From: Bacillota bacterium
GTDB lineage: Bacteria > Bacillota > Limnochordia > Limnochordales > DUMU01
Direction of reading: 5' to 3'
Assembly: GCA_012839805.1 (NCBI GenBank)
Contig: DUMU01000048.1
Span: forward strand, 1 to 64,000
DNA length: 64,000 nt
Below the pieces are notes generated by a model, which searched no databases, was not told the DNA's origin, and saw only the letters and a program-made list of their open reading frames with translations. Positions 3,062-36,490 of the stretch are shown piece after piece. Numbering within the stretch: the first letter of the stretch is position 1; each line of letters opens with the position of its first letter. The position numbers and the translations under genes are program-made.

Positions 3062-4300
3062 ATGGGCGGCACAGATCGAGGTGAATTCCCCAAGCCGGTC
3101 AAGGTCAGCGCCCTCCTGCTGATGCTGGCGGTGGTACTTGTTTTGCCGGGAGTGGTAGTTCTTTCGCAGCGCGCCCTTTCCTCGGAGCCGGCATCGGCGC
3201 CGGGGGGAGAGGAAGGCGCAGCCGGACCTGCAGGTACTCCCGTCTATCTGACCGAGTTCGGGGGAGACGTCCAGGTCTTTCGCAAGGTCCAGGGACGCTG
3301 GGTCGCCGCCTTCCCGAATCTCCGCCTCGAACCGGAAGACGAAGTCCGGACCGGCAAGGGGTCTTTCGCGGTGATCGCTTTCGGTGAACGAGCCGAGGTC
3401 CGCCTGGAAGCGCAGACCCACGTGATCATCGGCCCGGGAGGCGGGAGGACCGGGGCGACGGCCGGCCTGATCGTTAAGTCATCGTCTCCTTCGCCTGCCC
3501 TCTCGATAAGGATAGGCACGATTTGGGTGCAGGTAAATAAGAGCCTGTCACGGGTTTTCGATTTCTCGGTGGAGACACCCACGGCCATCGTCGGTGTGCG
3601 GGGCACGGTCTTCCTGGTACGGGTCGCCCCGGACGGAACCACCACGGTCGCCGTCTACCGCGGTGCGGTGGAAGTGGCGGCGGCGGAAGGTTCAGTATTG
3701 GTTACCGGAGGAAGGGGCACGGTCGTCGCCCCGGGTTCACCGCCAGCGCTCCCCGGACCGGTGGACCGGCTGCTGGACCAAAACCGCGAGGCGGCCCTCC
3801 GCTGGCTCGAGCGCCGCCTGGACGCATTAAAACGCCAGCTGGATAAGCTAGACGAGTTCGACGACCACGGAAAGGACGGAAACCAGGGTAAGGGTAGTGA
3901 GGAGCAAGAGGGCCGCCGGGAACAGCTCGAAGAGACCGTTGACGAGTTGAACGACCTGCTCCATTCCCTCACCGATGGTCCGACCGATGGTCCGGGCGAC
4001 AACGCCCCTTCGGACGAGGGATCCCAGGGCGACCGGCCCGGCCCGCCCCCGGGCCATGGCCCTGATTCGAACGCCGGCCAAGGCAACGATCAGCCCGGAA
4101 ACGGGGGCGACGACCATGAGGGGAACGGCACCCGTGGCCACCCTCCGGGACGTGGATCGGGACGCCCGCCGGACGCCGGACCGGGGAATGATCCGGGCGA
4201 CCATAATGGGGACGGGGAAGACGAAGGAACGGCCGTAGCCGGCGACGAAGAGAGTTCACTGCAAGGCTTGCTCGCAGGTTTTGGTTTGCCACTTCCGTAA
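3062..4300 (+). CDS. FecR-domain surface protein with Gly/Asp-rich tail
   Basis: A 412-residue protein with an N-terminal signal or anchor (about residues 14-36, rich in Leu and Val), then a FecR-type beta domain (about 65-235) including VSVETPTAIVGVRGTVF-like sequence (here FSVETPTAIVGVRGTVFLV). FecR domains are extracytoplasmic and often accompany CHASE2 cyclases; the role is thought to be signal input or scaffold. Residues 245-300 are charged and probably coiled, and the last 100 residues are low complexity, rich in Gly, Asp, Asn and Pro (GDNAPSDEGSQGD type), suggesting an extended surface tail. AGGAAGG-GGACAGG precedes the ATG. It lies 69 bases after the cyclase and 18 bases before the Crp gene. 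Confidence 0.85.
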   Translation: MGGTDRGEFPKPVKVSALLLMLAVVLVLPGVVVLSQRALSSEPASAPGGEEGAAGPAGTPVYLTEFGGDVQVFRKVQGRWVAAFPNLRLEPEDEVRTGKGSFAVIAFGERAEVRLEAQTHVIIGPGGGRTGATAGLIVKSSSPSPALSIRIGTIWVQVNKSLSRVFDFSVETPTAIVGVRGTVFLVRVAPDGTTTVAVYRGAVEVAAAEGSVLVTGGRGTVVAPGSPPALPGPVDRLLDQNREAALRWLERRLDALKRQLDKLDEFDDHGKDGNQGKGSEEQEGRREQLEETVDELNDLLHSLTDGPTDGPGDNAPSDEGSQGDRPGPPPGHGPDSNAGQGNDQPGNGGDDHEGNGTRGHPPGRGSGRPPDAGPGNDPGDHNGDGEDEGTAVAGDEESSLQGLLAGFGLPLP

Positions 4301-4318
4301 CGGCCGGAGTAGCGGCCG

Positions 4319-5014
4319 GTGATAGGCACGGAACTGCCGGTTGCCACCTTGCGGAGAATCACCCTTTTCGCCGCGTTTACCGATGAGGAACTGCGGGCCA
4401 TTATACCCCTCATCGTAACCCGCTCCTGCGCCCGGGGAAGCGTGATCTTTCTCGAGAACGACCCCGGCGACGCCCTCTACCTCATCCAGTCCGGGCTGGT
4501 GCGGATTTCCTGCCTGGCCCAGGATGGCCGGGTGAAAACCCTGGCGGTGCTGTCCGATGGCGACTTCTTCGGCGAAATGGCCCTGGTCGACGACCAACCC
4601 CGTTCGGCTACCGCGGAGGCCCTCGACACCACCACGCTCCTGGTTCTTTACCGCCGCGATTTCGAGCGTCTCCTATCGGACCACCCGGGCCTGGCCCGCG
4701 CCGTGATCAAAGGGCTCAGCCGGCGCCTGCGGGCGACCAACGAACAGCTGCTGGACGCCGTTTTTCTCGATGTCCGTTCACGAGTGATCAAAACTTTGCT
4801 CGCCCTGGCCGGGAGCCACGGAAAGCCGCACCCGGCCGGCCTCCGGATCGACCTGAGGCTCACCCATCAAGAGCTAGCCCAAATGGTGGGCACCTCCCGG
4901 GAAACCGTCACCCGCGTGCTCGCCGACCTCCAGGACTCGGGCCTCATCGGCTGGGACGGGCGCCAGCTCGTATTGGCGCGGGGCTTTCCCGAAGAAGGCC
5001 GGAGAAACTCCTAG
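4319..5014 (+). CDS. Crp/Fnr-family transcription regulator
   Basis: A 231-residue regulator with an N-terminal cyclic-nucleotide-binding beta barrel (about 20-130; DGDFFGEMALVDDQPRSATA is the phosphate-binding-cassette region, with the Gly-Glu and Arg-Ser expected for cyclic nucleotide binding) and a C-terminal winged helix (about 150-225) with recognition helix in TSRETVTRVLADL. There is no N-terminal cysteine cluster, so it is not an Fe-S Fnr. The GTG start at 4319 lies 18 bases after the FecR gene; the ribosome site is weak. Position behind a membrane adenylate cyclase makes cAMP the likely ligand. Confidence 0.9.
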   Translation: MIGTELPVATLRRITLFAAFTDEELRAIIPLIVTRSCARGSVIFLENDPGDALYLIQSGLVRISCLAQDGRVKTLAVLSDGDFFGEMALVDDQPRSATAEALDTTTLLVLYRRDFERLLSDHPGLARAVIKGLSRRLRATNEQLLDAVFLDVRSRVIKTLLALAGSHGKPHPAGLRIDLRLTHQELAQMVGTSRETVTRVLADLQDSGLIGWDGRQLVLARGFPEEGRRNS

Positions 5015-5153
5015 ACGTGCTCATATACGTCCGGTGCCACGGCTCCCGGGAGAGAGCTCCGACCGGCAGCCGACAACGCAAGGGAAGAGACTGCTATCCC
5101 TGTGCCGGTCCAGCCGTTCCGAGTAACGCCCGGCTCCGCTTTAGTCCCTACCC

Positions 5154-5738
5154 TCAGTCGTCATCGTTTCCCTCGAGCTGGAGCCAGGAGGGGTTCTCGG
5201 ACGCCTGGGTACCGGAGCTCTTGTCCGGGTTCCAGGGCCGAGCATAAACCAGAACCCGGGCGTCGCCCACAACCTCCCCGGCCAGCGCCAACGTGACCGG
5301 AACCTTGACGGTGTAACCGTGACCGCGGCTCGTAACCGCCGCCCGCCCGCAGACCGGGTACTCGACGATCCGGGCCGACGCCTCCTCGTTCCGATAGGCT
5401 GCTCCCGCCAGGCCCTTTACGGGGATATCCTCGGCGAAATGGAGTGTCTTCTTTGTAACATAGGTGTCGCTAGCACCCTTGCACCACAGAAAGAGATCAA
5501 AGCTGCCGGTGACCTTGACTTTCTTGCCCCCCCCGCTGTCGGGGATAACGGCCACGTCGTTTACTACCGCGTTGGCAGTGTGGGTCCCCAGTACCTCTAC
5601 CAGCCCACCGGTAGGGTTCTGCACCTCAATCTCGTACACCCGTTCTACGGTCGCGCTGCCGCGACCATAAACAGCCCTTAAGACCGTCTCGACCAGAGCC
5701 GCTCCCGCAGGGTTTGCCGCCTTCTCCGCTTCATGCAT
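5154..5738 (-). CDS. cotE: Outer spore coat protein, CotE family
   Basis: About 195 residues, matching the CotE family in length and pattern. The core VKVTGSFDLFLWCKGASD followed by TYVTKKTLHFAEDIPV resembles the CotE segment in which a beta-rich repeat carries VxGSFDxxxW and a later V-x-Y-x-x-x-IPV. CotE is a morphogenetic protein that anchors the outer coat around the forespore. The acidic C-terminus (LEGNDDD) also fits the family. Start: ATG at 5738 with GGGG nine bases ahead; GTG at 5744 is the alternative. It lies beside two CotS-like genes, which supports a coat role. Assignment is by eye from pattern, so moderately sure. Confidence 0.72.
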   Translation of the reverse strand: MHEAEKAANPAGAALVETVLRAVYGRGSATVERVYEIEVQNPTGGLVEVLGTHTANAVVNDVAVIPDSGGGKKVKVTGSFDLFLWCKGASDTYVTKKTLHFAEDIPVKGLAGAAYRNEEASARIVEYPVCGRAAVTSRGHGYTVKVPVTLALAGEVVGDARVLVYARPWNPDKSSGTQASENPSWLQLEGNDDD

Positions 5739-5888
5739 CTGCACTACCCCATTTCCTCAGGGATGAAGGGCGAGGTTTTCAAACCTGCCTGATACTTCTG
5801 CTTCATGATATGCCGCAGCCGGGGAGAGGTTCTTCCTGATCTCCACCCCCCATCAGGCGGGCGGCGGCGATTGGCCGCCTCGACCTGC

Positions 5889-5918
5889 AAAAAAGACGGG
5901 GAGGGAACACCCCTCCCC
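5889..5918 (-). terminator. Intrinsic terminator of the amphi-Trp gene
   Basis: Perfect 8-bp stem GGGGAGGG / CCCTCCCC (5898-5905 with 5911-5918) with a five-base loop, followed on the minus strand by GTC and six T. It lies 23 bases past the stop of the gene at 5942-6184. Confidence 0.85.
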
Positions 5919-5941
5919 GCCACGGCTGGCGCCGGCAGGTG

Positions 5942-6184
5942 CTAATTCACCTTTTCCTCTTCCAGCTCGTCTTCTTCCGGTTCCTCGCCCCATTCGACTT
6001 TCAACGAGAGGGTACCTGCGGTCCCCTCCTCCTTGTACTTGAGCGTGTAGCGCAGGTCGCTCTCGGGAACCGGCACGTGCTGGTCCTCGACCGCCAGAGC
6101 TCCGGTCAGGAGCTTGCCGGCGAGAGCATTGAGATAACCAACCAATTCCTTGCGGGACCCGATGCCCTCCTCCTTCCACTTCAT
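5942..6184 (-). CDS. Small amphi-Trp domain protein
   Basis: An 80-residue acidic protein. The pattern RKELVGYLNALAGKLLTG, then a short hydrophobic strand (DQHVPVPES), then LRYTLKYKEE and TLSLKVEW, matches the amphi-Trp domain: one amphipathic helix followed by beta strands ending in a conserved Trp. The C-terminus is nearly all Glu/Asp (EEPEEDELEEEK). Function of the family is not established. A strong GGGGGG ribosome site precedes the ATG. It is a single-gene unit with its own terminator, placed between cotE and the divergent CotS operon, so a sporulation or coat role is possible but unproven. Confidence 0.75.
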   Translation of the reverse strand: MKWKEEGIGSRKELVGYLNALAGKLLTGALAVEDQHVPVPESDLRYTLKYKEEGTAGTLSLKVEWGEEPEEDELEEEKVN

Positions 6185-6331
6185 ACTCTTTAACCCCCCT
6201 TTCCTGCCAGGTTCCCGAGCAATCTATGCGACGAGATCGAGGCACGAAACAGGCCTGTAAGAGCATTCCTAAGCTGAGCACGGCCGATATCACCGGCATA
6301 CAATGCTATATCCAAGCAGGGAGGGGTCAGC

Positions 6332-7387
6332 GTGTCTCCGCCTTCCATTCTTCCCCCGCCCGCCGTGCTGGCAGCTTACGACCTGGCGGACGCCTCCGTG
6401 ACCGCGGAAAACTACAAAGAGAAAAAAGGCGTCTGGTACGTGAGCCACGCAGGCCAAACAAGGGTACTGAAAAAGCTCCCCTTGAGTCCCGGCCGGCTCC
6501 GGTTCGTGCTCGATGCCATCGCTCACCTGCGCAACCAAGGCATCCATATCCCCGGGGTCTTTACTACCGTCGATGGTCGTGAGTTCGTAGAGGCGGACGG
6601 CAGCACTTATATCCTGACTGAGTTCGTCAAGGGCAGAAACCCGGACTATGAAAAGGAAAGCGACCGCAGGCGGATCTTACAGGGCCTGGCCGCGTTCCAC
6701 CGGGCCTCTCGCGGCCTGCGCTGGTCCGCCCGGGCGCAAGCCCATGTCCAGCTGGGCAGTTGGCCGGAACAGTATGCCGATCATCTCGAAAGGATGGCCA
6801 AGGCAGAGCTCCGCGGGCCTTTCGGTAGCGAAGCTGCGAAATACCGGCCGCGCTTTCTCGAGATCGGCCATTTCGCCCGCCGGCGTCTGCTGCAGTCAGT
6901 GTACGCCCAATGGGTGGCGGAAGTGGAGCGGGAAGGCGGATTAGTTCACCAGGACTTTGCTCCGGGGAATCTCCTGATCGACCAGGCCGGGAGACTCCAT
7001 GTGCTGGACGTCGACTCGCTGAGTGTCGAGATCCCGGCCCGGGACCTGCGTAAGGTCCTGTTGAAGATGCTGAAAAAGAAGCCTGCCTGGGACCATCCTC
7101 AGGCCTGTGCTTTGCTTGGTCACTACCACCAGGTCTATCCTCTCCCCCGGCCCTACTATGAGGTGGTGGCGATTGACCTGATGTTCCCCCACCTCTACGC
7201 GGGCCTAGTAGACAAATACGTTCGGGAGCGGGCACCCGACTGGAGTGAACAGAAATTCCTGCGCAAGCTCTGGGAATTAGTCAGGTTCGAGGAGACCAAG
7301 GCGCAGGCACTCACTTCTCAGGAGCTACTCCCCTCTCTCCCCTTGCGTACCAGCAGGGCCAGTGAAGGAGGACTACCGGATGCGTAG
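6332..7387 (+). CDS. CotS-family spore coat kinase-like protein (first copy)
   Basis: A 351-residue protein of the CotS/YutH/YsxE family, which has the aminoglycoside-phosphotransferase kinase fold. Seen: VLKKLPLSPGRLRF near residue 48 (nucleotide Lys region), an intact catalytic loop GGLVHQDFAPGNLLID (about 205-220), and LDVDSLSVEIPARDLRKVLLK, the metal-binding strand plus the family's signature. Family members sit in the spore coat; their substrate is unknown, but the intact His-Gln-Asp suggests a working kinase. The GTG start at 6332 has GGGAGGGG five bases ahead. The stop overlaps the next gene by eight bases, so translation is coupled. Confidence 0.88.
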   Translation: MSPPSILPPPAVLAAYDLADASVTAENYKEKKGVWYVSHAGQTRVLKKLPLSPGRLRFVLDAIAHLRNQGIHIPGVFTTVDGREFVEADGSTYILTEFVKGRNPDYEKESDRRRILQGLAAFHRASRGLRWSARAQAHVQLGSWPEQYADHLERMAKAELRGPFGSEAAKYRPRFLEIGHFARRRLLQSVYAQWVAEVEREGGLVHQDFAPGNLLIDQAGRLHVLDVDSLSVEIPARDLRKVLLKMLKKKPAWDHPQACALLGHYHQVYPLPRPYYEVVAIDLMFPHLYAGLVDKYVRERAPDWSEQKFLRKLWELVRFEETKAQALTSQELLPSLPLRTSRASEGGLPDA

Positions 7388-8462
7388 ACCTGGCTCGTCG
7401 TCCCCGCCGCCGCCCCCGCGCCCGGCACCTCCGCTCCTCTCGCCGCACCTCCAGCTGCCGCACCGGCAGCAGCTACCGGACGTGCTGGGCAGGTACCAGT
7501 TCAAAACGCATCGGGTGATACCGGTCCAGGTCGAGGCAGACTCAGGCAAGGGTGTCTGGCAGGTCGAGACCGACCGCGGTACCGTCTGCCTGAAGCGAAC
7601 CGGGCAACCGGCCGACCGGATGGCCTTCAGCATTGCCGCCCAGCTTCACCTGGCCGCCCACGGTGCCCCGGTACCCAGGTTGATTCCCGCCCGGGACGGG
7701 ACCTTTGCCGTCGAGAGCGCCGGCCAGGTGTACGTGGTCTACCAGTGGATCTCTGGCCGCAGCGTCCGCTGGGAGAATCGGGACGACCTCCAGGCGAGTG
7801 TCGAGGCTCTGGCTCGTCTTCACGGCGCCTCCCGGGGGTTTACGGTCCCGGCGGGTGTAAAGGTTTTTACCAAACTGGGCCGCTGGCCGGACCATTATGC
7901 CGAGATGGAGGAGCGGCTGCAAAAATGGAAGGTACAAGCCGAGCAGCAGCCGGAGGTCAGGTTCCACGCCCATTTCCTGGCGGGAGTGGATACCGCTCTC
8001 GAGCTGGCCGCCCGGGCCCGGGCCGCGCTGGCGACTTCGCCCTATGACGTGCTCGTTCAGCGTACCTGGCCTGGTGATACCCTTGTCCATCAAGACTTCG
8101 GGCCAAGTAACATCATTATGACCGGCACTGGCCCGTATTTGCTGGATCTTGATACGGTTACCCTGGAGTTTCCCGCCCGGAACCTGCGCAAGCTCATGGG
8201 CGAGCTCATGCAAAGCAAGGGCGGCTGGAGAAGTGACATCATCGACGAAGTGCTGGGTTGGTATACCAAGATCAACCCGCTTGCAGCCGAGCATCTCCAT
8301 CTTCTTGGCATCGATCTTATGTTTCCTAATGTATTCCACGACTCTGCCAAGAACTGGTTTAAGAAGAACAAGCCTGAGAAACCCGACCGTATGGAACGTG
8401 CCTGCCGGTTCGAACGCGAAAAGGCCGACACTCTGACGGTTTGGCTACCAAAACTGAGGTGA
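7380..8462 (+). CDS. CotS-family spore coat kinase-like protein (second copy)
   Basis: A 360-residue paralogue of the preceding gene. It has a proline-rich N-terminus (about residues 5-22), VCLKRTGQPADRMAF (nucleotide Lys), the catalytic loop DTLVHQDFGPSNIIMTG, and YLLDLDTVTLEFPARNLRKLMG. The ATG at 7380 is preferred because AAGGAGG lies eight bases ahead and is embedded in the end of the upstream gene; an in-frame GTG at 7362 has no site. Two adjacent CotS genes are known in spore formers. The copies share motifs but differ through most of their length, so the duplication is old. Confidence 0.88.
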   Translation: MRRPGSSSPPPPPRPAPPLLSPHLQLPHRQQLPDVLGRYQFKTHRVIPVQVEADSGKGVWQVETDRGTVCLKRTGQPADRMAFSIAAQLHLAAHGAPVPRLIPARDGTFAVESAGQVYVVYQWISGRSVRWENRDDLQASVEALARLHGASRGFTVPAGVKVFTKLGRWPDHYAEMEERLQKWKVQAEQQPEVRFHAHFLAGVDTALELAARARAALATSPYDVLVQRTWPGDTLVHQDFGPSNIIMTGTGPYLLDLDTVTLEFPARNLRKLMGELMQSKGGWRSDIIDEVLGWYTKINPLAAEHLHLLGIDLMFPNVFHDSAKNWFKKNKPEKPDRMERACRFEREKADTLTVWLPKLR

Positions 8463-8467
8463 GTCGA

Positions 8468-9619
8468 GTGCGTATCGCGCTGGTACCTACGGAGAAGCTG
8501 CCCGTGCCCCCGGTGAGGGGTGGCGCCATCCAAATATACATCGACGGAATTATTCCTTTCCTAACCCGTTACCACGATATCACCGTGTACAGTGTCACCG
8601 ACCCTGAACTACCCGCCGAGTCGACGCTAGGCGGTGCGAAGGTGATCCGTCTGCCCGGCACCCGGTACCATCACAACGTAGCCCAGGCTCTGCGGGAGGC
8701 CGAGTTTGACGTGCTGCACATCTTCAACCGGCCCGCCTGGGTGGCCTCCTTCGCCGAGGCCCAACCGGGGGCACGGCTGATCTTGAGCCTGCACAACGAG
8801 ATGTTTCAACCCGACAAGATCTCGGCCGAAAACGCCACTACCTGCCTCGAGGCGGTTGATCGCCTGGTCACGGTCAGCCATTTCCTCGCCGGCAGTGTGG
8901 CCGCCCGGTATCCCCAGGCCGAGCAGAAGACCAGCGTAATCTATTCGGGAGTCGACCCCGATCTTTACCTGCCCCGCTGGCACCCCCGTGCCCGTTCCTT
9001 GCGAGCCAAGCTCGCCCGCCGGCTGGGGTTCGACCCTGACGCGCCGGTAATTCTCAATGTGGGCCGCCTGTCACCGAAAAAAGGAACTCACATTATTATC
9101 CAGGCGATGGAGACGGTTCATGAGAGGTTTCCCGATGCGGTACTGATCATCGTGGGTAGTAAGTGGTACGGGCAGACGGAGTGGGACGAGTATGGCCTGT
9201 ACCTGCTGAAGCTGGCGGCGCCGTACGGGGGACGGGTCATCCTGACCGGTTTCGTCCCGCCGGCGGAGGTCCCCATGTATTACAGTTCCGCCGACATTTT
9301 CGCCTGCGTCTCCCAGTGGGCGGAGCCCCTGGCTCGCGTCCACTACGAAGCGATGGCGGCGGGGCTACCCATCATCACCACCCGGCGGGGGGGAAACCCC
9401 GAGGTGGTCGAGGGGCTGGGTAACGGCTGGGTGATCGACGACTACGACGACCCCGTCGTCATCGGCACCCACCTGGCGCTGCTGCTGGAAAAGCAGGAGC
9501 TGGCCGATACGATGGGGCGATCCGGGAGAAAGCTCGTAGAAGAGCGGTTCAACTGGGAACGGGTCGCCGGTGAACTGCTGGCCATCTACGCCCAGCTCGA
9601 AGGGGAGGGGCAGCCATGA
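8468..9619 (+). CDS. cotSA: GT4 glycosyltransferase, CotSA type
   Basis: A 383-residue GT-B retaining glycosyltransferase of family GT4. The acceptor half opens with PVRGGAIQIYIDG and VLHIFNRPAWV; the donor half carries NVGRLSPKKGTHIIIQAM and the nucleotide-sugar E-x7-E motif in EPLARVHYEAMAAGLP. B. subtilis CotSA is a GT4 found with CotS, so a role in spore-coat glycan synthesis is likely. GTG at 8468 follows GAGGTGA and lies six bases after the CotS stop; TTG at 8441 in frame is less likely. The stop overlaps the next ATG by four bases (ATGA). Confidence 0.88.
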   Translation: MRIALVPTEKLPVPPVRGGAIQIYIDGIIPFLTRYHDITVYSVTDPELPAESTLGGAKVIRLPGTRYHHNVAQALREAEFDVLHIFNRPAWVASFAEAQPGARLILSLHNEMFQPDKISAENATTCLEAVDRLVTVSHFLAGSVAARYPQAEQKTSVIYSGVDPDLYLPRWHPRARSLRAKLARRLGFDPDAPVILNVGRLSPKKGTHIIIQAMETVHERFPDAVLIIVGSKWYGQTEWDEYGLYLLKLAAPYGGRVILTGFVPPAEVPMYYSSADIFACVSQWAEPLARVHYEAMAAGLPIITTRRGGNPEVVEGLGNGWVIDDYDDPVVIGTHLALLLEKQELADTMGRSGRKLVEERFNWERVAGELLAIYAQLEGEGQP

Positions 9620-11061
9620 CGGTACTGGTGGTAGGAGCAGGCCGGGTGGGGCTGGTCATGGCGGTGGCCCTAGCCCGTCTGGGGCATCGAGTGGTCGGTC
9701 TCGAAAAGGACGCCGAACGCGTAGAGCTCCTGCGCCGGGGGCGTTCACCCTTCTGGGAAGCAGGGCTGCAAGAAGCGCTGCCAGAAGAGATGGAAAGCGG
9801 GCGGTTGCAGTTCCTTCACCTGGATGAACAGGCCGGGATCACCGGCACCGCCGGCATGCCCGGCAGTTCGCAGATAGTGATGCTCTGCGTCGGTACACCT
9901 CCCGCTTCTGCCGGCGGCGTCGACCTGAGCCAGCTGGAAGAGGCGGTGGACTCCCTGCTTCCGTGGCTGCGGGGGACTAACAGAAAGGTTGTCCTCGTCA
10001 CCAAGAGTACGGTCCCCGTCGGTACGGCCCGGGCGCTGGCCGCCAGGATCGAAGCGTACGGGCTGTCGGATCGGGTGCTGGTCGCCAGCAACCCCGAGTT
10101 TCTGCGAGAAGGAACAGCGCTTGAAGATGCGCTCCATCCGCACCGCATCGTCATCGGCGTCCGGGAGCCCGAGGCGGCAGAGATCCTCAGGGAGTTGTAT
10201 GCACCGGTAGACGCACCCACCGTCGTCACCGACTGGCAGACGGCCGAGCTCAGCAAGTACGCGGCCAATGCCTTCCTGGCCACCCGGCTCTCCTTCCTGA
10301 ACGAACTGGCCGATCTGGCCGAGGCCATGGGGGCCGACGTCGTCCAGGTGGCCCACTGCCTGGGCCTTGACCCCCGGATCGGCCCGCACTACCTGAAGGC
10401 GGGCCTGGGGTACGGCGGTTCGTGCCTGCCCAAGGATGTGGCCGGGCTGCTCCACATGGCGGCCGACCTGGGTATAGCTCCCGTGCTTCTGGGGGCCGTG
10501 GCCGCAGTCAACGCCGCCCGCCCCGGTAAGGCGGTGGCCAGGCTGAGGCAGGCGCTGGGAGGCCGGCTGGCGGGCAGGGTGGTCGCGGTTCTGGGACTGA
10601 GCTTTAAGGGCGGAACCGACGACTTGCGCTCCTCGCCAGCCCTGGAGGTGGTACGGCAGCTGCTTCAGGCTGGAGCTCGGGTCCGGGCTTACGATCCGGC
10701 CCACGCTCCCGCACCTGACCTCGCCCGCGGGTTAGCCCGCGCACCGGCTCGCGAGCCGGCCCGCGAGCTGGCGATCGTGAAAGCCCGGGCGGCGATACCA
10801 GACCCGGGCGGCTCCCTCGCCATCTTCCCGGAAGCGTACGAAGCCGTTCGCGGGGCGCAAGCAGTGGCAGTGCTGACCGACTGGGCGGAATTCCCTCAGC
10901 TTGATTGGGCGCGCATCCGAGCACTCATGACCGGCCGCGTAGTGCTGGACGCCCGCCTGTGCCTGGATGAGGCCCGGCTGGCCGGTCTGGGCTTCACCTA
11001 CCTCGCCCCCGGGCGAGGGCAGTTTCCGGCGTCCCCGAGGGAGGCTGGCGAACATGGCTAA
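9616..11061 (+). CDS. ugd: UDP-glucose 6-dehydrogenase
   Basis: A 481-residue enzyme oxidising UDP-glucose to UDP-glucuronate with two NAD. The N-terminal Rossmann site is VLVVGAGRVGLVMAVAL; ASNPEFLREGTA and GYGGSCLPKD (catalytic Cys) are intact; the C-terminal domain has LGLSFKGGTDDLRSSP. Between about residues 365 and 395 there is an unusual Ala/Arg/Glu/Pro-rich insert (ARGLARAPAREPAREL); its DNA contains the perfect 16-bp palindrome CCGGCTCGCGAGCCGG at 10744-10759, suggesting a local expansion. The gene is coupled on both sides (four-base overlap with GT4, eight-base overlap with the epimerase). Confidence 0.95.
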   Translation: MTVLVVGAGRVGLVMAVALARLGHRVVGLEKDAERVELLRRGRSPFWEAGLQEALPEEMESGRLQFLHLDEQAGITGTAGMPGSSQIVMLCVGTPPASAGGVDLSQLEEAVDSLLPWLRGTNRKVVLVTKSTVPVGTARALAARIEAYGLSDRVLVASNPEFLREGTALEDALHPHRIVIGVREPEAAEILRELYAPVDAPTVVTDWQTAELSKYAANAFLATRLSFLNELADLAEAMGADVVQVAHCLGLDPRIGPHYLKAGLGYGGSCLPKDVAGLLHMAADLGIAPVLLGAVAAVNAARPGKAVARLRQALGGRLAGRVVAVLGLSFKGGTDDLRSSPALEVVRQLLQAGARVRAYDPAHAPAPDLARGLARAPAREPARELAIVKARAAIPDPGGSLAIFPEAYEAVRGAQAVAVLTDWAEFPQLDWARIRALMTGRVVLDARLCLDEARLAGLGFTYLAPGRGQFPASPREAGEHG

Positions 11062-12040
11062 AGCCATCGTGACCGGGGCAGCCGGGTTCATCGGGTCGAC
11101 CCTGGCCGAGAAGTTGCTCGAGCAAGGGCATGAAGTGGTTGGCATCGACGCTTTCTTACCCAACTACTGTATCCATCAAAAACAAGACAACTGGGACCGG
11201 CTGCGAGCTCGGGACGGGTTCACCGGGCTGCTGGGCGACCTGGTACGCCTGGACCTTGGACAGGTCGCAGCCGGTGCGGACGTGATCTTCCACCAGGCCG
11301 CGCTCGCGGGTGTGCGTGAGAGCTGGGGTGGAAACTTCCCGGCGTATCTGCACAACAACGTGCTGGCGACCCAGGTACTGCTGGGCCTGGCCGTCAGGCA
11401 TCAGATCAAGAAGTTTGTCTATGCCTCGTCCTCTTCGGTGTATGGCAAGCAGCCCACCCTTCCGCTCCATGAAGGAATGCTTCCCCGCCCCTACTCGCCT
11501 TACGGAGTAACCAAACTGGCCGGCGAACACCTGGTCCGGGCCTACCACGAAAACTTCGGCCTGGCGACGGTGAGCCTGCGCTATTTCACCGTCTACGGAC
11601 CCCGCCAACGCCGGGACATGGCCGTCTATAACTTTATCGATGCCATCGCCCACGGCCGCGAGGTCCGGGTGTACGGGGACGGCAACCAGACCCGTGACTT
11701 CACCTACGTAGATGACGTCGTCCAGGCCAATATCGCTGCCTGGCAGGCTCTGTCGAACGCCGGGTGCGGTTCTCGTCCTCCGGCCACGGCGAACGTGAAC
11801 GGCGAAGTCCTCAACGTAGGCAGCGGCACTTCGGTTACGATAAGAGAGCTCATCGAAGCCATCGGCCGGGTGGTCGGGCGCGCTCCCCGCATTGCCACCG
11901 CGCCGGCCGCCCCCGGCGACGTTAGTGCCACACTGGCCAACGTAGAGCGGACCAGGACCATGTTGGGGTGGCAACCGGTCACCCCCCTGCAGGAGGGCCT
12001 GCTCGCTCAGTACCGGTGGTATCAAGAGACGCAGCGGTAA
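11054..12040 (+). CDS. UDP-sugar epimerase/dehydratase (SDR), probably acting on UDP-glucuronate
   Basis: A 328-residue extended SDR. Rossmann motif TGAAGFIGSTLAEKLL at the N-terminus, catalytic Ser in SSSVYGK, the YSPYGVTKLAGEHL Tyr-x3-Lys, and the substrate-binding FTVYGPRQR and GDGNQTRDFTYVDDVV. Coming straight after UDP-glucose dehydrogenase it most likely converts UDP-glucuronate to UDP-galacturonate or decarboxylates it to UDP-xylose; the sequence alone does not decide. ATG at 11054 overlaps the ugd stop by eight bases. Last gene of the plus-strand coat-glycan operon; it ends seven bases before a convergent gene. Confidence 0.85.
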   Translation: MAKAIVTGAAGFIGSTLAEKLLEQGHEVVGIDAFLPNYCIHQKQDNWDRLRARDGFTGLLGDLVRLDLGQVAAGADVIFHQAALAGVRESWGGNFPAYLHNNVLATQVLLGLAVRHQIKKFVYASSSSVYGKQPTLPLHEGMLPRPYSPYGVTKLAGEHLVRAYHENFGLATVSLRYFTVYGPRQRRDMAVYNFIDAIAHGREVRVYGDGNQTRDFTYVDDVVQANIAAWQALSNAGCGSRPPATANVNGEVLNVGSGTSVTIRELIEAIGRVVGRAPRIATAPAAPGDVSATLANVERTRTMLGWQPVTPLQEGLLAQYRWYQETQR

Positions 12041-12047
12041 GACTGAC

Positions 12048-13034
12048 TCATACTCCTTTATCCTTGCGCCACCGGCGATAATCCGCCCAGAGCTTCTCAG
12101 CACCCTCGACCCGAGCCGGCGCCCGCGAGTCGGGGTCGTTCATGAGGCCAAAATACTGATAGCAGATAACCTTCTCGACATGCGGCGAGACGGCGGCAAT
12201 CTGCCGTTCCACCCGGGCAAAGGGAGCAGCGATGGGGGGATCGCGGTAGGGTTGACCGTGGTAGTCGAAGACCTCCACGTTGGCCCAGAGGGGAATCTGC
12301 GCCTGCCGGTGCGCGGCGGCCAGGCGCCGGAAGATGGCCGGCAATTCCTCTACCCGCGTCTTGCGCACCCCCACTTCGTCCTGGTAGGCCACGATGTCGA
12401 CGGCCAGTTCCCGCAACTGGCGGGTGTACTCCTCATCCCCTGCTGCCGAGCGGGTTCCGTAGGGTGAGATAAGTATCTGGCGAGAGCGGTCCAGCTGTTT
12501 GCAAATAGCGGCGAATTCCCGGGTGTATTCGATGTATACGGGAGCAAAGTAGCCGCTGATACCGCATTCGGCCGGCAGATACCAGCCGGCGAGCGACGGG
12601 TGGTGGCCGTACCGGTCCAGTAACTCGGCGGGAACGAGCCGCCGCAATTCCCGTTCGGCAGGCGTGGCCCGGTGGTCATCGGAGACATCGACTCCGAAAA
12701 AGCCGAGCCCCAGGAATACACGGGCTTCTCTCTCATCGGCCGCCGCCAGCACTGCCTCCACCGGGTCGGCCGCGGCCACGGGCCAGCGATCGGGTATTAC
12801 TCGGGACGGCCAGAACGCCTTCCCGTGCAGGCTGACACAGGAGGCAATCAGCGTATCCATGCCGGCGTCGACCATCTCCCAAACCTTGTAACGCCACTGG
12901 TCATCCGTGAAAGCGGCCGCCGCCTCACTCCAGGCCGCAATCGGGTTGCGATGGCGAAAGTCGAACCACGTCCCCGTGATCGGTCGGAGCGACGGGAAAG
13001 TCCCATCCGGTCGTGCCACACTGGAATAAGTCAT
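12048..13034 (-). CDS. DUF4434-type TIM-barrel protein, possible glycosidase
   Basis: A 328-residue protein with no signal peptide. It starts with PITGTWFDFRHRN and contains DAGMDTLIASCVS, LGLGFFGVD, GWYLPAECG, ILISPYGTRSA, VDIVAYQDEVGVRKT, LWANVEVFD and VICYQYFGLMNDPDS, spaced like the strands of a beta/alpha barrel. This matches the DUF4434 family, related in fold to glycosidases; acidic residues at strand ends (Glu in LPAECG, Glu in ANVEVF) are candidate catalytic groups. Substrate unknown. A GGAGG site lies ahead of the ATG at 13034. Its stop faces the epimerase stop; the gene 13126-13938 lies upstream on the same strand and may be co-transcribed. Confidence 0.75.
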   Translation of the reverse strand: MTYSSVARPDGTFPSLRPITGTWFDFRHRNPIAAWSEAAAAFTDDQWRYKVWEMVDAGMDTLIASCVSLHGKAFWPSRVIPDRWPVAAADPVEAVLAAADEREARVFLGLGFFGVDVSDDHRATPAERELRRLVPAELLDRYGHHPSLAGWYLPAECGISGYFAPVYIEYTREFAAICKQLDRSRQILISPYGTRSAAGDEEYTRQLRELAVDIVAYQDEVGVRKTRVEELPAIFRRLAAAHRQAQIPLWANVEVFDYHGQPYRDPPIAAPFARVERQIAAVSPHVEKVICYQYFGLMNDPDSRAPARVEGAEKLWADYRRWRKDKGV

Positions 13035-29495: not shown

Positions 29496-31445
29496 TTACT
29501 GGAGCCCCACCGCCGGTTTCGGCTTGGCCCCCGCGCCCAGCGGTAGTCCCACCTCGGCGCCGCGCTCCTTCTCCCGGCCTTCGCCCACCGCCTCTCCGGC
29601 TCGCTCCGGGGCAACCGCCTGAGCTTCGTGACCGGCTGCTTCGACCAACGCTTCGCCCCGCATCAGCGCCGCAAACTCCTCGCGGCTTAACGTCTCGCGT
29701 TCCAGGAGGGCCTCCGCCACCCGCGAGAGCTCCGCCCGATGCTCCTCCAGAATGGCCTTGGCCCGGGCGTGGGCCGTCTCTACCAGCCGGCGCACTTCCT
29801 TGTCGATGGCCGCCGCTACCTTTTCACTGTAGTTCCGGTCCCGGGCGATGTCACGCCCGAGGAAAATCAGGTCTTCGTTTTGGCGTCCGAAGGTGAGCGG
29901 CCCCAGCTCTTCGCTCATCCCGTACTCGGTCACCATCCGCCGGGCTACCTTGGTTGCCTGTTCAAGATCGTTGTGAGCCCCGGTGCTAACCTCGCCCAGG
30001 GCGAGCTCCTCCGCCGCCCGGCCTCCCAGCATTTGGGCAAGTCTTTCCTCCAACTCCGTACGGGTCTCGTACCAGCGGTCCTCTTCCGGCAGGGTCAAGG
30101 TATACCCACCCGCCAGCCCCCGTCCCACAATGGTCACCTTGTGAACCGGATCCGCATGCGGCAGGAAGTACGCCACCACGGCATGTCCCGCCTCGTGGAA
30201 GGCAGTCAGCCTCTTTTCCCGCTCCGTCATCACCCGGCGTTTGCGCTCCGGTCCGATCAACACCCGGTCTACGGCTTCCTCGATCTCCGCCATAGTTATT
30301 CGCTTCTTGCCCCAGCGAGCGGCCAGGATGGCAGCCTCGTTCATCAGATTCTCAAGGTCGGCTCCGACGAACCCCGGGGTCATGCGGGCTACGGTCTTGA
30401 GGTCTACGTCGGCGGCCAGAGGCTTGTTGCGGGCGTGAATGCGCAGGATTTCCTCCCGGCCTACCACATCCGGCCGGTCCACCACGACCCGCCGGTCGAA
30501 GCGCCCCGGGCGCAGGAGCGCCGGGTCGAGCACGTCCGGCCGGTTGGTGGCCGCCATAACGATCACTCCGGTATTGGCCTCGAAACCGTCCATCTCCACC
30601 AGGAGCTGGTTGAGGGTCTGCTCCCGTTCGTCGTGGCCGCCGCCGAGCCCCGCCCCCCGGTGCCGGCCCACCGCGTCCAGCTCGTCGATGAACACTATGC
30701 AAGGGCTATTCTTCTTCGCAGTATCGAACAGGTCCCGGACCCGGGCGGCGCCCACCCCGACGAACATCTCGACGAAGTCGGAACCGCTGATGCTAAAGAA
30801 AGGTACCCCGGCTTCCCCCGCCACCGCCTTGGCCAGGAGCGTCTTTCCCGTTCCCGGCGGCCCCACCAATAGCACGCCCTTCGGGATCTTCGCCCCCATC
30901 TCCATGAACCGCTTGGGATGCTTGAGGAACTCGACGATCTCACCCAGCTCCTGCTTGGCCTCGTCCACCCCGGCGACGTCGTCGAAGGTTACCTTCGCCT
31001 TCTCTTCCGAATAAAGGTGGGCCCGGGCTTTGGCGAAGGAGAGAGCCCGGTTGTTGCCCCCTTGCATCTGGTTGAGTATGAAAAGGAAGAATCCGGCAAA
31101 GATCACGAGCCCGATGACGGAGGGCAGCACCGCCACCCACCAGGGCTGTTTGACCTCTTGCGGGTCGACCGCGACTCCCCGGCTTGCCAGCTCCAGGGAG
31201 AGCTGTCCCGCCAGGCCGGGCGGAATGACGGTCTGAAAGTGCTGCCCATTACGCAGCTGACCCACCACGGTCTGTTCGCCAATGATTCGTACCCGGCTGA
31301 CTTCACCCTTATTCACATACTCCATGAATTGGGTGAAGTTGGGACGCTCCACCGCAGGCTCTTTCGACATTAACATCCGGCCCACCGATAGAGCCAGGAT
31401 GGCGATGAGCATATACAGGCTGAGGTTGCGCGCCAGCTTGTTCAA
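29496..31445 (-). CDS. ftsH: ATP-dependent zinc metalloprotease FtsH
   Basis: A 649-residue hexameric membrane AAA+ protease. TM1 ([16 protein letters not shown]), a small extracytoplasmic domain, TM2 (about residues 105-125), then the AAA module with Walker A GPPGTGKT, Walker [14 protein letters not shown], the SRH region [18 protein letters not shown], and protease site [14 protein letters not shown] (HExxH). The TTG at 31445 gives the standard start [11 protein letters not shown] and has GGGGAGG eight bases ahead; the ATG at 31517 lies in a -10 box. The C-terminal 45 residues are rich in Ala, Glu and Gly. Degrades misfolded membrane proteins and regulators including those acting in sporulation. 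Confidence 0.96.
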
Positions 31446-31515
31446 ATAAGGACCTCCCCTCGCGGGCCCACTTCCGTCCACGGCTCCACGCGAGTACTTC
31501 TTCACAATCGCTTCC

Positions 31516-31524
31516 ATTATAGCA
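31516..31524 (-). promoter_or_regulatory. Extended -10 promoter of ftsH
   Basis: On the minus strand TGCTATAAT is a perfect extended -10. It overlaps the ATG at 31517, leaving about 65 bases of leader to the TTG start at 31445. No strong -35 at 17 bases. Confidence 0.55.
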
Positions 31525-31545: not shown

Positions 31546-33066
31546 TCAACCTTCCCGCAGGGGGAGATACCGGGTGGGCACGTCCCCCTGCGGTCCCGAC
31601 CAGCGGAGCCGGACCACCCGCCGGCTCCCGGGCATAGCCACCACCCTCCGGTCGACGGCCAGACCGGGAACCCAGACGATCCCCACCTCGTCTACCACCA
31701 CCGGCCAGTTCGACCGCCACTCCCGGGGAATCTTGGCGTCGACGAACAGATCCTGCAGCTTCTTATGTCCCGCCATCCCCGGCGGTGCCACCCGATCGCC
31801 CGGCCGCCAGGAACGTACCCGGAGTCCTCCGGCTACCAGGTCGGCGTCGAGCAGGGCTTCCCAGCGTCCCCGCGGCGGCAGGCCCGCCGTTTGACCACCG
31901 GAGCCGCTTCCGGTCGCTTCGACCCCTTCGAGGGAGGCTCGTATGATCGTTTCACCCCTCACTCCCCAGGAAACGCTTCCCGGAACCGGAAGATCAAGTG
32001 CCTCCTCTCCCACCTGGCCCTCTTCCTCCCGGGCCACCCGCCACAGCCTGACCCGCTCTCCCTTGAGTTCCCACCTGAGCCCTCCCGGAAGGTCGCCGCG
32101 AAGGTAAGCGATACCGTCCTCACCATCGCCCCGATCTCTGACGACGGCGTCACCTGCAACTGGCGCGAGCAGGGCAAGACGCCAGCGTTCCGTCGTGGTA
32201 AAGCCCCAGTCCCGCGGCATCCTTCCCTCCAGGAGACGCCGGACCAGCTGGCGAAGGACCCGGCGCTGCAAAGCTACCGGTAGTTCCGCGAAGGGCAGGA
32301 GCCGCCACGAGACGGCGCCGGGGTCAGGGGCCGGCCGGCCTTCGCAGCTAACCTCCAACCGGGTAAGAGCGTGCCGAGCGGTGGCTTCCAGAAACTCGTC
32401 CTCTTCCCTGGCGACTTCAGCAAGACGCACCAGGTTCACCCGGATCGCCGGGCTATACTCTTGCTCCAGTAGCGGCAGCAACTCCTGGCGTATCCGGTTG
32501 CGCAACCAGGTCACCTCGGTATTGGATCGGTCCCTTGCCGGTTCCCATCCCCAGGCCGCCAGGTAATCTTCGATCTCCTGGCGTCGCGTGGAGAGGAGTG
32601 GCCGGACGTACCGGTTCTCTCGCAGCCAGCTCATCCCGGTCAAACCCCTTAGACCTGTACCTTGCAGCAGGTGAAGAAGGATCGTCTCGGCCTGGTCGTC
32701 CAGGTGGTGGCCCAGGGCTACCCGATCGCAACCGAGCCGGGTGGCCAGTTGATCAAAGAACCGGTAACGCGCGAGCCTCCCGGCCGCCTCCAACGAGATA
32801 CCGCGCTCCCGGGCCAGGGCTGCCACCTCGACCCTTTCCACATAAAAGGGAACTGCTAGTGTTTCGGCCAACCGGCGCGCCTTCTCCTCGTCGGCTCTGG
32901 CCTCCTCCCCCCGCAAGCAGTGATTGAGATGGGCCGAGGCCAGTTCCCATTGCCATTCCTCTTCTCGAGCCAGGCGCCAAAGGAGGTGGAGGAGAACAGA
33001 AGAATCCGGCCCCCCTGAGAGGGCAACCAATACTCTCTGTCGCGGCAGGATAAGCTTTCGGGTCAC
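31546..33066 (-). CDS. tilS: tRNA(Ile)-lysidine synthase
   Basis: A protein of at least 506 residues that changes C34 of the AUA-reading tRNA to lysidine. The PP-loop is [18 protein letters not shown], followed by [45 protein letters not shown] and [28 protein letters not shown]; the C-terminal TilS domain follows. The normal N-terminus seems to begin further upstream: codons before 33066 read [17 protein letters not shown] in frame, but no ATG/GTG/TTG opens it, so the true start may be a CTG near 33110 or the GTG used here. Essential in bacteria. It sits between spoIIE and ftsH as in many spore formers. Confidence 0.93.
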
Positions 33067-33615: not shown

Positions 33616-36411
33616 TCATATTATGCTAATTTGGGATTCTAGTCCATCCTTTCCCTCGCTGCCGATGGGCGGCAAAACTTGCGCCGGCAACCGGACGTAT
33701 TCGCGTGCCTCCGTCCCCCATCCCGGCGGGGTGCCGTTGGAACGCGAGGAGCGTCCTTCCTCCAGCATGATGACTACCACCGTGGTATCATCGGGAAATT
33801 CACCCCCCGCTGAACTCAAAGCAGCCGAAAAGAGTTCATCCGCCAACCGCCGGGGCTCCCGAATACCGCCCGCAAGGGCACGGGTGATCCAATCCGTCAC
33901 CGTGGCGACCTCTTGGCCGGTATGCGCCCCGGCCTCCAGCACCCCGTCGGTACAAAGCACCAGGAGATCGCCGGGGAGAAGGCGGAGCCGCTGCGGTTCC
34001 ACGGGAATACCAGCCAGTATCCCCACGGGAAGAGTGGACGAACTTACGGTGCTGATCTTGTTACGTCGCACCAGGAAGCTGGGGGGCGATCCGATCTTGA
34101 TGAGTTCGGCCATCCCGCGATGCAAATCCAGCGTGACGAGATCGAGAGCGGCAAACCTCTCTTCGGACCGGAGCAAGAGAGCCGCATTGAGGGTACGGAC
34201 GGCAAACTCGGGGCTGAAGCCGGCGATCAGCAGCCGGCGCAGCATCTCCATGGCGGTCTGGCTCTCGTCGGCCGCGGGAGAACCGCTTCCCATGCCGTCG
34301 ATGAGCGCGATTACCTCTTGCTCGTCTCCGAGGGGGAAGCGGATGACGGCGTCGCCCGAGATCGCCGCCCCGGTCTTGGCGGTCGCGGCCACCCCCCAGC
34401 GGACCCGGAATTCCTGCGCGGGCAGGAGACGATAGACCGCCCGGAATGGGAGGCACCCGCTTCCCGCGGGAGGAAAGGGCGGCGGAAGGTCGGCGGCGGC
34501 CGCCCCGGGGGTGGGAGAGGAAGATAGCGTCACCCGCAGCAGTTCACCATCGAGACGGCGGCCGACCGCCCCGGACATCACCTCCGCCAGCCGCTCCGCC
34601 CAGCCCTCGGCCTCCTCCCGCCTCGCGAGCCAAAGGGTGATCTCGACCTGATATCGGTTAGAATCGGTCTCACCTGCTCCCAGCATAAGCACGGTAACCC
34701 GGGCGGGGGGAAACCCTCTCCCCAGGAGTTCAGCCTCCAGCCGGGCTGACAGGCCAGAGTTGACCTGCACCTCCGCCTGCATCTCGGCGGCCAGGACCTC
34801 CATCAGCTGAGCAAGCCCCCGCAACTCACCCCCCACCAGGCGCCGGCTCTCCCATACCTTTCGGCGCCAGTGGGCTAGAAGGCGCGAAACCCGCAGGAAC
34901 CGGTTGATGGCAGCCACCAGCCGGCGCGCCCGCAGACAACGCCGCCGCAACGAAAGGGGCATGTCCTCGAACCGTACCTGCTCTCCCCGTTCGCCGGAGG
35001 CAAGGAGGTCCACCAACGCCCAGTACGTTTCCTGGGACTTTTCCTGCCAACACGATCGCCGGGCAGGGCACCCCCGGCAGCAGTCCTCGTCGACCTCTCG
35101 CAAGAAGAGGGCCATGCCTGCGACCGGGTTGCGGAGTAAACGGGAAAGATCGACGGGTACGCCGGCCGGGCTGCCGGCCGGGGCCTGTTCGAAGACGGCC
35201 GCCACTTGTTCCAGCACTTCCCGCACCCCGATTAACCGCGCGGTCATCTGGTGACGCAGGTGGAAGGCTTCCACCTCGTCGGAGGTGGCATCGTCACGGG
35301 GTTGGAAGAGCAAGCGAACCCACTCGACCCAGAAGGCGGGACCCGCGACGAAGGCAAGGGCAGCTACCAGGAACGATGCTGCATAGGCCATGGGGAAAAC
35401 CTCATCCCCGAGATTCATCCCTTCCCCGGCCAGCAGGGCTGTAGCAGCCGCGGCCATACCCATTGCATACCAGGCCACGATTCCCATCCGCCTCCGAGCA
35501 GGAAAAAGGCCGGCAAAAAGTGCCCCGGTGGTGCAGATGACTACCGAGGCCGCTTGATGGGAAACCGCGCTTTCGGCGAGACCCAGGGCGGCCGCGGCCG
35601 CGGTGGCCGCGCCGGCACCCCCGGCCGCAGCCGCGAGGAGACTGGTACCAAAGGCCAGAACCAGGGAAATCCGAACTGGCCCCAGTTCCAGTCCCAGTTG
35701 GGCAGAAGCACTAACGGCCAACGCCGCGACCAGGAGAAAGCCGGCCTGCTCGGAGCGATCCAACCGGGCGGGATAAAACCCGTTTTTGCGATACCAGAGC
35801 ACTCGCCAGACAGGCCGCAACAGAAGGGTCCCGGAAAAGGCCAAGGAACCGCTGATTGCCAGAAGAGGCGCTGCAAAAGCCAAGCTGCCCCGGGCGGCCG
35901 CCACCGCCCCGTGGCTTAGAACCAACAAGAAGCTGGCCACCCCCGACATGACAACCATTCGGGCCTCCGTCCGCCCGCCGGGCTGCTCTCCCCGGCGCCG
36001 GAAAAGGAGGAGGTTTCGACCGAACCAGATGGCAGAGCCAGCCAAAAGCGTGGCTATCATGAAGGCACCGCCCATCCGGAGATGGCCGAGGGAGGCGCCG
36101 ACCAACGCCATGGCGGGCAGCAGGGTGTCTCCCGCTGCCCGTCCGGGCAACGCCGGACCCGAGGCCGTGCGGGCGGCAAAGGGCGCGGTTAAAAAACTCG
36201 CGACATACCAAGCATAACCAAAGGGAGCCACCCGATCCCAATGGGCGAGGGAAAGGAGCCAGCCGGTGAGACCGGCGGCCAGGACGGAAAGGCCCCGCAC
36301 CAGGTTAGACCACGGCCTCCCCCGGGCTTCCAGGAGACTCCGCCTCGGGGGAGAACCGCCTCGCGGCAAAGGACGAACCCGGTGGTAGCTTGGAAGCTCG
36401 AGGGAGGCCAT
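33616..36411 (-). CDS. spoIIE: Stage II sporulation protein E, PP2C phosphatase
   Basis: A 931-residue membrane phosphatase. Residues 35-330 hold about ten membrane helices, the middle (about 345-620) is the FtsZ-interacting and regulatory region with a Cys-rich stretch (CCRGCPARRSC), and the last 220 residues are a PP2C domain: EVIALIDGMGSGSPAADESQ, FAALDLVTLDLHRGMAELIKIGSPPSFLVRR, GDLLVLCTDGVLEAG and PDDTTVVVIML. SpoIIE dephosphorylates SpoIIAA, freeing sigma-F in the forespore, and helps polar division. Its presence shows endospore formation. ATG at 36411 is chosen; GTG at 36423 is in frame. The length exceeds the usual 800-830, mainly in the N-terminus and middle. Confidence 0.95.
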   Translation of the reverse strand: MASLELPSYHRVRPLPRGGSPPRRSLLEARGRPWSNLVRGLSVLAAGLTGWLLSLAHWDRVAPFGYAWYVASFLTAPFAARTASGPALPGRAAGDTLLPAMALVGASLGHLRMGGAFMIATLLAGSAIWFGRNLLLFRRRGEQPGGRTEARMVVMSGVASFLLVLSHGAVAAARGSLAFAAPLLAISGSLAFSGTLLLRPVWRVLWYRKNGFYPARLDRSEQAGFLLVAALAVSASAQLGLELGPVRISLVLAFGTSLLAAAAGGAGAATAAAAALGLAESAVSHQAASVVICTTGALFAGLFPARRRMGIVAWYAMGMAAAATALLAGEGMNLGDEVFPMAYAASFLVAALAFVAGPAFWVEWVRLLFQPRDDATSDEVEAFHLRHQMTARLIGVREVLEQVAAVFEQAPAGSPAGVPVDLSRLLRNPVAGMALFLREVDEDCCRGCPARRSCWQEKSQETYWALVDLLASGERGEQVRFEDMPLSLRRRCLRARRLVAAINRFLRVSRLLAHWRRKVWESRRLVGGELRGLAQLMEVLAAEMQAEVQVNSGLSARLEAELLGRGFPPARVTVLMLGAGETDSNRYQVEITLWLARREEAEGWAERLAEVMSGAVGRRLDGELLRVTLSSSPTPGAAAADLPPPFPPAGSGCLPFRAVYRLLPAQEFRVRWGVAATAKTGAAISGDAVIRFPLGDEQEVIALIDGMGSGSPAADESQTAMEMLRRLLIAGFSPEFAVRTLNAALLLRSEERFAALDLVTLDLHRGMAELIKIGSPPSFLVRRNKISTVSSSTLPVGILAGIPVEPQRLRLLPGDLLVLCTDGVLEAGAHTGQEVATVTDWITRALAGGIREPRRLADELFSAALSSAGGEFPDDTTVVVIMLEEGRSSRSNGTPPGWGTEAREYVRLPAQVLPPIGSEGKDGLESQISII

Positions 36412-36490
36412 GGTCTTACTCACTCCTGGCTCGCCGGCGTCTCGGGGCCCGGTGTGCGTTTACCAGCAGCTGTACCGTCACTCTACCACC

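Follow-up and report, generated by a model that had tools for sequence, protein, structure and literature searches.

A gene cluster of Bacillus in which spore kinases stand beside sugar enzymes, cotS/ytaA-cotSA-ytcA-ytcB, was described by Scheeff et al. 2009 (PMC2860764), who proposed a reactant of a sugar pathway as the ligand or phosphorylation substrate of the spore kinases. The same source places cotS and ytaA of B. subtilis under the control of sigma-K and GerE and describes the packaging of their products as CotE-dependent (PMC2860764). Here we describe a locus at positions 5154–12040 of a 64,000-nucleotide stretch of Limnochordales DNA (contig DUMU01000048.1; the whole stretch is called the window), which, judged from sequence, is quite likely the counterpart in Limnochordales of the cotS-cotI(ytaA)-cotSA-ytcA-ytcB coat glycan cluster, lying beside a divergent cotE and a gene with an amphi-Trp domain. 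An initial annotation of this DNA had tied the CotS kinase fold to sugar chemistry; the gene context makes that link plausible, but neither the cluster nor its connection with nucleotide sugars is new, both having been published in 2009 (PMC2860764).

Gene block and its conservation

The window proteins were scanned with Pfam and NCBIfam, using curated bit scores as family cut-offs. On the minus strand lie a cotE homologue (outer coat morphogenetic protein family; 5154–5744, 196 amino acids; PF10628, 38.9 bits against a cut-off of 25), which was the sole CotE-family match in a search of the window genome, and the amphi-Trp gene (5942–6184, 80 amino acids; TIGR04354, 33.4 bits, cut-off 31), whose product has an acidic tail and is a candidate coat component. 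An operon of five genes occupies 6332–12040 on the plus strand. Its first two genes encode CotSa, assigned to the CotS group by the tree described below (6332–7387, 351 amino acids; TIGR02906, 230.4 bits, cut-off 172.7), and CotSb, assigned by the tree to the CotI/YtaA group (7380–8462, with the open reading frame (ORF) listed from 7362; 360 amino acids; 242.9 bits, same model and cut-off). They are followed by a CotSA/YtcC-like GT4 glycosyltransferase (8468–9619, ORF listed from TTG 8441; PF00534, E 3e-36), a UDP-glucose 6-dehydrogenase of the YtcA type (9616–11061; TIGR03026, 388 bits, cut-off 189.8) and an SDR epimerase of the YtcB type, predicted to be a UDP-glucuronate 4-epimerase (11054–12040, ORF listed from 10967; PF01370, E 4e-55).

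The most likely start of CotSb is ATG 7380, which gives an 8-bp overlap with CotSa, and the junction sequences place the dehydrogenase start at ATG 9616 (4-bp overlap with the GT4 gene) and the epimerase start at ATG 11054 (8-bp overlap with the dehydrogenase gene), the latter being favoured over the in-frame start at 10967 within the dehydrogenase gene. The GT4 gene most likely starts at GTG 8468, 5 bp past the CotSb stop and preceded by GAGGTGA, so this junction is tight and non-overlapping. The stop-to-start overlap attributed to the operon by the initial annotation therefore holds at three of the four junctions but gives way to a 5-bp gap between CotSb and GT4. Its gene list (two CotS kinases, a CotSA-type GT4, a dehydrogenase and an epimerase) was borne out by the Pfam and NCBIfam matches, as was the position of cotE on the opposite strand; the amphi-Trp gene lying between was absent from that list.

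The locus was compared in the window genome (G000), a genome of the same genus (G001), one of the same family (G002) and two further relatives (G003 and G004). SpoIVA, SpoIIIAA and a member of the sigma-K family each scored above cut-off in all five genomes, and the host lineage is likely to sporulate. The window also holds a SpoIIE gene (33616–36423), with tilS-like (31546–33066) and ftsH-like (29496–31517) genes likewise on the minus strand. The order and strands of cotE-amphi-Trp and of the five operon genes are kept in G001 and G002 at 60–79% identity, and in G004 cotE-amphi-Trp and CotSa-CotSb-GT4 are followed by a second cotE. The two cotE genes of G004 (locus L039; 7240–7881 and 11644–12222, both on the minus strand) stand on both sides of its CotS-CotS-GT4 operon, and the window cotE is nearer to the downstream copy (56% identity over 156 amino acids) than to the other (37% over 190). 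G003 has a single CotS amid three GT4 genes, a dehydrogenase and an epimerase, in a different gene order. CotS scored above cut-off in 13 of 41 genomes (the window genome and 40 relatives).

Genome contigs were searched with a profile built from CotSb and proteins related to it, and the best 80 of 320 confirmed loci were kept, their contents being scored by tblastn with the window proteins; one of the two motifs used in the search was the kinase HxD motif, which favours intact kinases. At least two CotS genes were present in 79 of these loci, GT4 in 79, the dehydrogenase in 54 and an epimerase of at least 30% identity in 52. Sixty loci carry a tandem kinase pair, 19 are split, with CotS on the opposite strand, and one has a remaining layout; the split loci all belong to Bacillales (Bacillus, Sutcliffiella, Rossellomorea, Pseudalkalibacillus and Sporolactobacillus). 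The Bacillus spizizenii locus (L123) is in the set, and its protein at the YtaA position shares 96% identity with the chain of the YtaA structure. The exact order CotS-CotS-GT4-dehydrogenase-epimerase was found in 15 of the 80 loci, those of G001 and G002 among them, and because of this recurrence, together with the order and strands kept in these two relatives, the block is held to be beyond chance. The dehydrogenase and epimerase are optional members of the cluster.

Kinases and predicted sugar chemistry

The best solved-structure match of CotSb was 2q83 (YtaA), at E 2.3e-55. In a kinase tree of 67 rows, drawn from 28 of the 80 loci together with the window, its relatives and YtaA, first-position and second-position kinases separated with few exceptions (5 label changes against a shuffled mean of 24.1), the kinase order being swapped in L085, L096, L100 and L103. 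CotSa grouped with the first-position kinases and Bacillus CotS (support 94/80, the group being drawn open in the tree), and CotSb grouped with YtaA (97/89). Both window kinases read KHDNDD at six checked catalytic residues, the same as YtaA, and both possess the residues matching YtaA H237, D239 and N244 and the DxD motif; these residues do not support a pseudokinase reading of CotSa and CotSb. Phosphotransfer by the two proteins is predicted, a sugar being one putative substrate.

It is possible, although we do not favour it, that the kinase-fold proteins act as scaffolds and not as enzymes, with the sugar enzymes working without phosphorylation. In 19 of the 19 split Bacillales loci, three or more of the six residues have been lost from the opposite-strand CotS, a loss already noted by Scheeff et al. 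2009 along with three non-Bacillaceae species free of it (PMC2860764). The assembly of CotSA requires CotS in B. subtilis, and the 2009 account of the spore kinases (BSK) gives none as assayed at that date (PMC2860764). Against the scaffold explanation, the two window kinases retain all six residues, as do 137 of the 158 kinase rows that were scored; the locus search itself favoured HxD, and L054, L055 and matches of fewer than 181 aligned residues were omitted from the count.

The top solved-structure matches of the dehydrogenase are named UDP-glucose dehydrogenase, and the GT4 shares 42–43% identity with each of the two GT4s at the B. spizizenii locus. For the epimerase the best solved match was 6zl6 (E 4.4e-71, 41% identity in the alignment), followed by 6zlj and MoeE5; the first two we take to be the B. 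cereus UDP-glucuronic acid 4-epimerase (UGAepi), and their numbering fits the residues named in papers on that enzyme. At positions 126–128, 149, 153, 178 and 185 the window enzyme reads SSSYKTR and 6zl6 reads TSSYKTR, Y149 and K153 being the catalytic residues, and the sole change, T126 to Ser, is conservative. Binding of the carboxylate in UDP-glucuronic acid epimerase is assigned to Thr126, Ser127, Ser128 and Thr178, and decarboxylases have Glu in place of Ser128 (PMC7984243); Arg185 is named for the product (PMC12338863). A UDP-xylose synthase (decarboxylase) reading was rejected, the window enzyme having Ser where decarboxylases have Glu. Among the 80 loci, the signature [ST]SSYKTR was present in 50 of 57 SDR matches, spread over 50 loci and including the ytcB position of B. 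spizizenii (only matches of more than 150 aligned residues were scored, the short ones of L102 and L110 being left out); the seven matches without it do not exceed 28% identity to 6zl6, and the enzymes at the ytcB position in 15 split loci have 56–64% identity to it.

Because of the kept signature and the identity to 6zl6, the YtcB-type enzymes of the cluster are predicted to be UDP-glucuronate 4-epimerases, with UDP-galacturonate as product, and not the UDP-glucose epimerase given for ytcB in Table II of Scheeff et al. 2009 (PMC2860764). That an enzyme of this kind acts instead on UDP-glucose or a UDP-GlcNAc-type sugar and makes no galacturonate, which would be nearer the 2009 label, we consider quite unlikely: the highest NCBIfam score of the window epimerase is for galE, but at 159.7 it falls below the cut-off of 262.3, and T126 is replaced, but the three top solved matches and the signature, R185 included, argue for UDP-glucuronate, and the B. 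cereus enzyme (BcUGAepi) cannot use UDP-Glc or UDP-Gal (PMC12338863). The spore glycan with glucuronic or galacturonic acid put forward by the initial annotation thus gains a route predicted from sequence, from UDP-glucose through UDP-glucuronate to UDP-galacturonate, beside a CotSA-type GT4, coat kinases and cotE, but the sugar interpretation is not itself new; a uronic glycan on the spores is a prediction.

Promoter boxes and the amphi-Trp gene

The motif CATAnnnTG is the expected -10 element of the mother-cell sigma factors sigma-E and sigma-K, and sigma-K spacing is AC-N16/17. On the minus strand, 69 bp ahead of the start of cotE, the box GCATATCATG (5804–5813) fits AC-N16-CATAnnnTG and is sigma-K-like; it is identical over 10 bases in G001 and G002 and reads CCATAGGATG in G004. 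Upstream of the amphi-Trp gene lies GCATAGATTG (6220–6229, minus strand), and upstream of the CotS operon GCATACAATG (6296–6305, plus strand), GCATAnnnTG being present at both places in G001, G002 and G004 as well. CATAnnnTG was thus found upstream of CotSa, amphi-Trp and cotE at 12 of 12 sites in the four genomes that share this layout (the cotE distance in G002 and G004 being counted from where the aligned stretch begins), compared with 11 occurrences on both strands of the 64-kb window, or 0.086 per kb per strand; three of the five window occurrences of GCATAnnnTG are the three gene-start boxes. The extended form AC-N16/17-CATAnnnTG precedes cotE in all four genomes and also the second cotE of G004, and the CotSa boxes of the four genomes have no consistent -35. 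A sigma-70 promoter scan was uninformative (2 found, 1.2 expected). These boxes suggest that cotE, amphi-Trp and the operon carry putative promoters of mother-cell type.

With a profile built from nine rows, amphi-Trp was detected in 52 of the 80 loci, all of them among the 60 tandem-pair loci (none in the 19 split loci or in the remaining one); three of the eight tandem loci without it end at a contig edge. In 49 tandem loci it lies upstream of the first CotS, at a distance of up to 1.3 kb. A CotS gene is no more than 400 bp away in 47 loci; the two genes share a strand in 38 of these and have opposite strands in 9. Reference-free ORF clustering of the 60 tandem loci ranked it third (42 loci), after the kinases (60) and GT4 (52) and ahead of the epimerase (38), the dehydrogenase (34) and a CotE-like cluster (20), so named only from its containing the cotE of L055. 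In 30 whole genomes with amphi-Trp at the locus there was one copy in 29 and two in one, all 31 places being at the locus, and in five whole genomes chosen for a locus without it there was none anywhere in the genome. Among the 41 genomes it was found in four (G000, G001, G002 and G004), always beside the CotS pair, in a scan with the TIGR04354 model, which is weak for this group and makes absences there soft.

A sample of 149 genomes drawn from the phylum speaks against the link: CotS was above cut-off in 18, and amphi-Trp was found in only two, the window genome and G122 (E 6.6e-6), where the match lies far from those of CotS. The link therefore concerns the CotSb-like tandem pair, on which the choice of loci was based, and not CotS at large.

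We know of no function for the amphi-Trp family. TIGR04354 was matched at E 0.001 by 38 of 53 aligned members, none of which gave a Pfam match. The AlphaFold model (pLDDT 83.2) shows one helix and two long strands, with an acidic tail modelled at low confidence, and a solved-fold search with it returned 57 matches at E up to 10 and none at E 0.001. On balance we lean towards amphi-Trp being a missing part of the tandem CotS/CotI-CotSA glycan machine: the mother cell would make it as a coat protein with an acidic tail, and it would be an adaptor for the kinases and the glycosyltransferase or their acceptor. The split form, that of Bacillus, Sporolactobacillus and their kin, would lack it, and there CotS would have turned pseudokinase. 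Four amphi-Trp copies surround the CotS genes of L083, from a Clostridia metagenome-assembled genome (4522–5815 and 15320–15568), and two lie at the CotS locus of Geosporobacter ferrireducens (L112; 1862–2104 and 8497–8748). Bacillus litorisediminis has a locus of each form: the split one (L101) lacks amphi-Trp, and in the tandem one (L133) the gene stands downstream of the second CotS.

The proposed coat glycan assignment and its comparison with known clusters

If the locus is a coat glycan cluster, the mother cell would transcribe cotE, amphi-Trp and the five-gene operon late in sporulation from the CATAnnnTG promoters. The dehydrogenase would convert UDP-glucose to UDP-glucuronate, the epimerase would convert this to UDP-galacturonate, and a coat acceptor would receive one of these sugars, or a different one, from the CotSA-like GT4. 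Both kinase-fold proteins would work in the same machine, with a small molecule, a sugar or glycan intermediate or the acceptor as the target of phosphorylation. The expression of the genes, the location of their products on the spore, the composition of the glycan and the kinase substrate are what we infer here from families, residues, gene order and boxes.

Several observations weigh against this assignment. The locus of G004 is without the dehydrogenase and the epimerase, and uronic acid is therefore not obligatory; both sugar enzymes occur together in only 44 of the 80 loci, some of the others being cut by contig ends. A second dehydrogenase/epimerase-like pair is present in the window genome (G000:C32:28335-30766; 48% and 40% identity), and the only such pair of G004 lies away from its CotS locus, so UDP-uronates may also serve other polymers. 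The B. subtilis spore-surface sugars named in PMC7439481 include no uronic acid. The CATAnnnTG motif was picked after inspection of the sequences, and in 57 named tandem loci CATAnnnT occurred in 19 on the forward and 25 on the reverse strand (Markov mean 10.2); with no strand-specific excess there, the promoter signal is limited to the four genomes. Upstream of control genes, in stretches measured from the family match, spoIIIAA gave a mixed result (CATAnnnTG in G000 and G001, only at -295 in G002, none in G003 and G004), and for spoIVA the motif was found in none of the five genomes (147 bp only in G003).

That the operon makes a uronic polymer of the vegetative envelope or capsule, with kinases that are moonlighting or misnamed small-molecule kinases, is improbable: capsule loci do hold sets of dehydrogenase, epimerase and GT4, and the FecR and Crp genes adjoining cotE are not known sporulation genes, but the kinases group in the tree with the coat proteins CotS and CotI, cotE and the operon have mother-cell-type boxes in common, and the second pair of the window genome possibly serves an envelope polymer instead.

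Next to cotE, genes for a CHASE2-adenylate/guanylate cyclase (1172–2992), a FecR-domain protein (3062–4300) and a Crp-type regulator (4319–5014) follow one another on the plus strand, possibly a cyclic-nucleotide signalling set beside the spore genes. A DUF4434 protein gene (12048–13034, minus strand) is convergent with the operon, and its product had no tblastn match in 20-kb stretches of G001, G002 and G004.

The coat glycan assignment would extend a known spore-coat module to a deep lineage of the Bacillota. The substrate question of the 2009 paper may be easier to answer where both kinases are intact, the prediction of YtcB-type enzymes as UDP-glucuronate 4-epimerases, and hence sources of UDP-galacturonate, is a correction that can be assayed, and the amphi-Trp link may offer a first testable spore role for that family. 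Open-access literature searches found no paper joining spore kinase, CotS and glycosyltransferase (from 2010), none pairing amphi-Trp with spore and none joining UDP-galacturonic acid, Bacillus cereus and sporulation. What may be new is the regular occurrence of amphi-Trp with the tandem CotS/CotI pair, together with the reassignment of the YtcB-type epimerases.

Compared with the Bacillus cluster cotS/ytaA(cotI)-cotSA-ytcC-ytcA-ytcB-ytdA, the window locus has kinases of the same CotS and CotI/YtaA groups, a CotSA/YtcC-like GT4, YtcA-like and YtcB-like enzymes and the link with CotE. The Bacillus cluster is arranged in split units and has two GT4s, whereas the window has a compact tandem operon and one GT4; ytdA, present in Bacillus, had no similar protein among the ten scanned at 3062–13034, the region to which that search extended. 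The window further differs in that both kinases are intact and that cotE and amphi-Trp adjoin. Its epimerase, set beside what we take to be the B. cereus UDP-glucuronic acid 4-epimerase, has Ser for T126, and its activity is predicted from their 41% identity and shared signature. The tandem CotS-CotI loci (Clostridia, Acetivibrio, Desulfotomaculaceae and others; 60 of 80) share with the window the tandem kinases, GT4, often the sugar enzymes, and an adjacent amphi-Trp. The window has cotE, as 20 of the 60 tandem loci have a CotE-like ORF by clustering, and its amphi-Trp gene stands opposite to CotS, in the manner of the nine loci and unlike the 38 in which the two genes share a strand.

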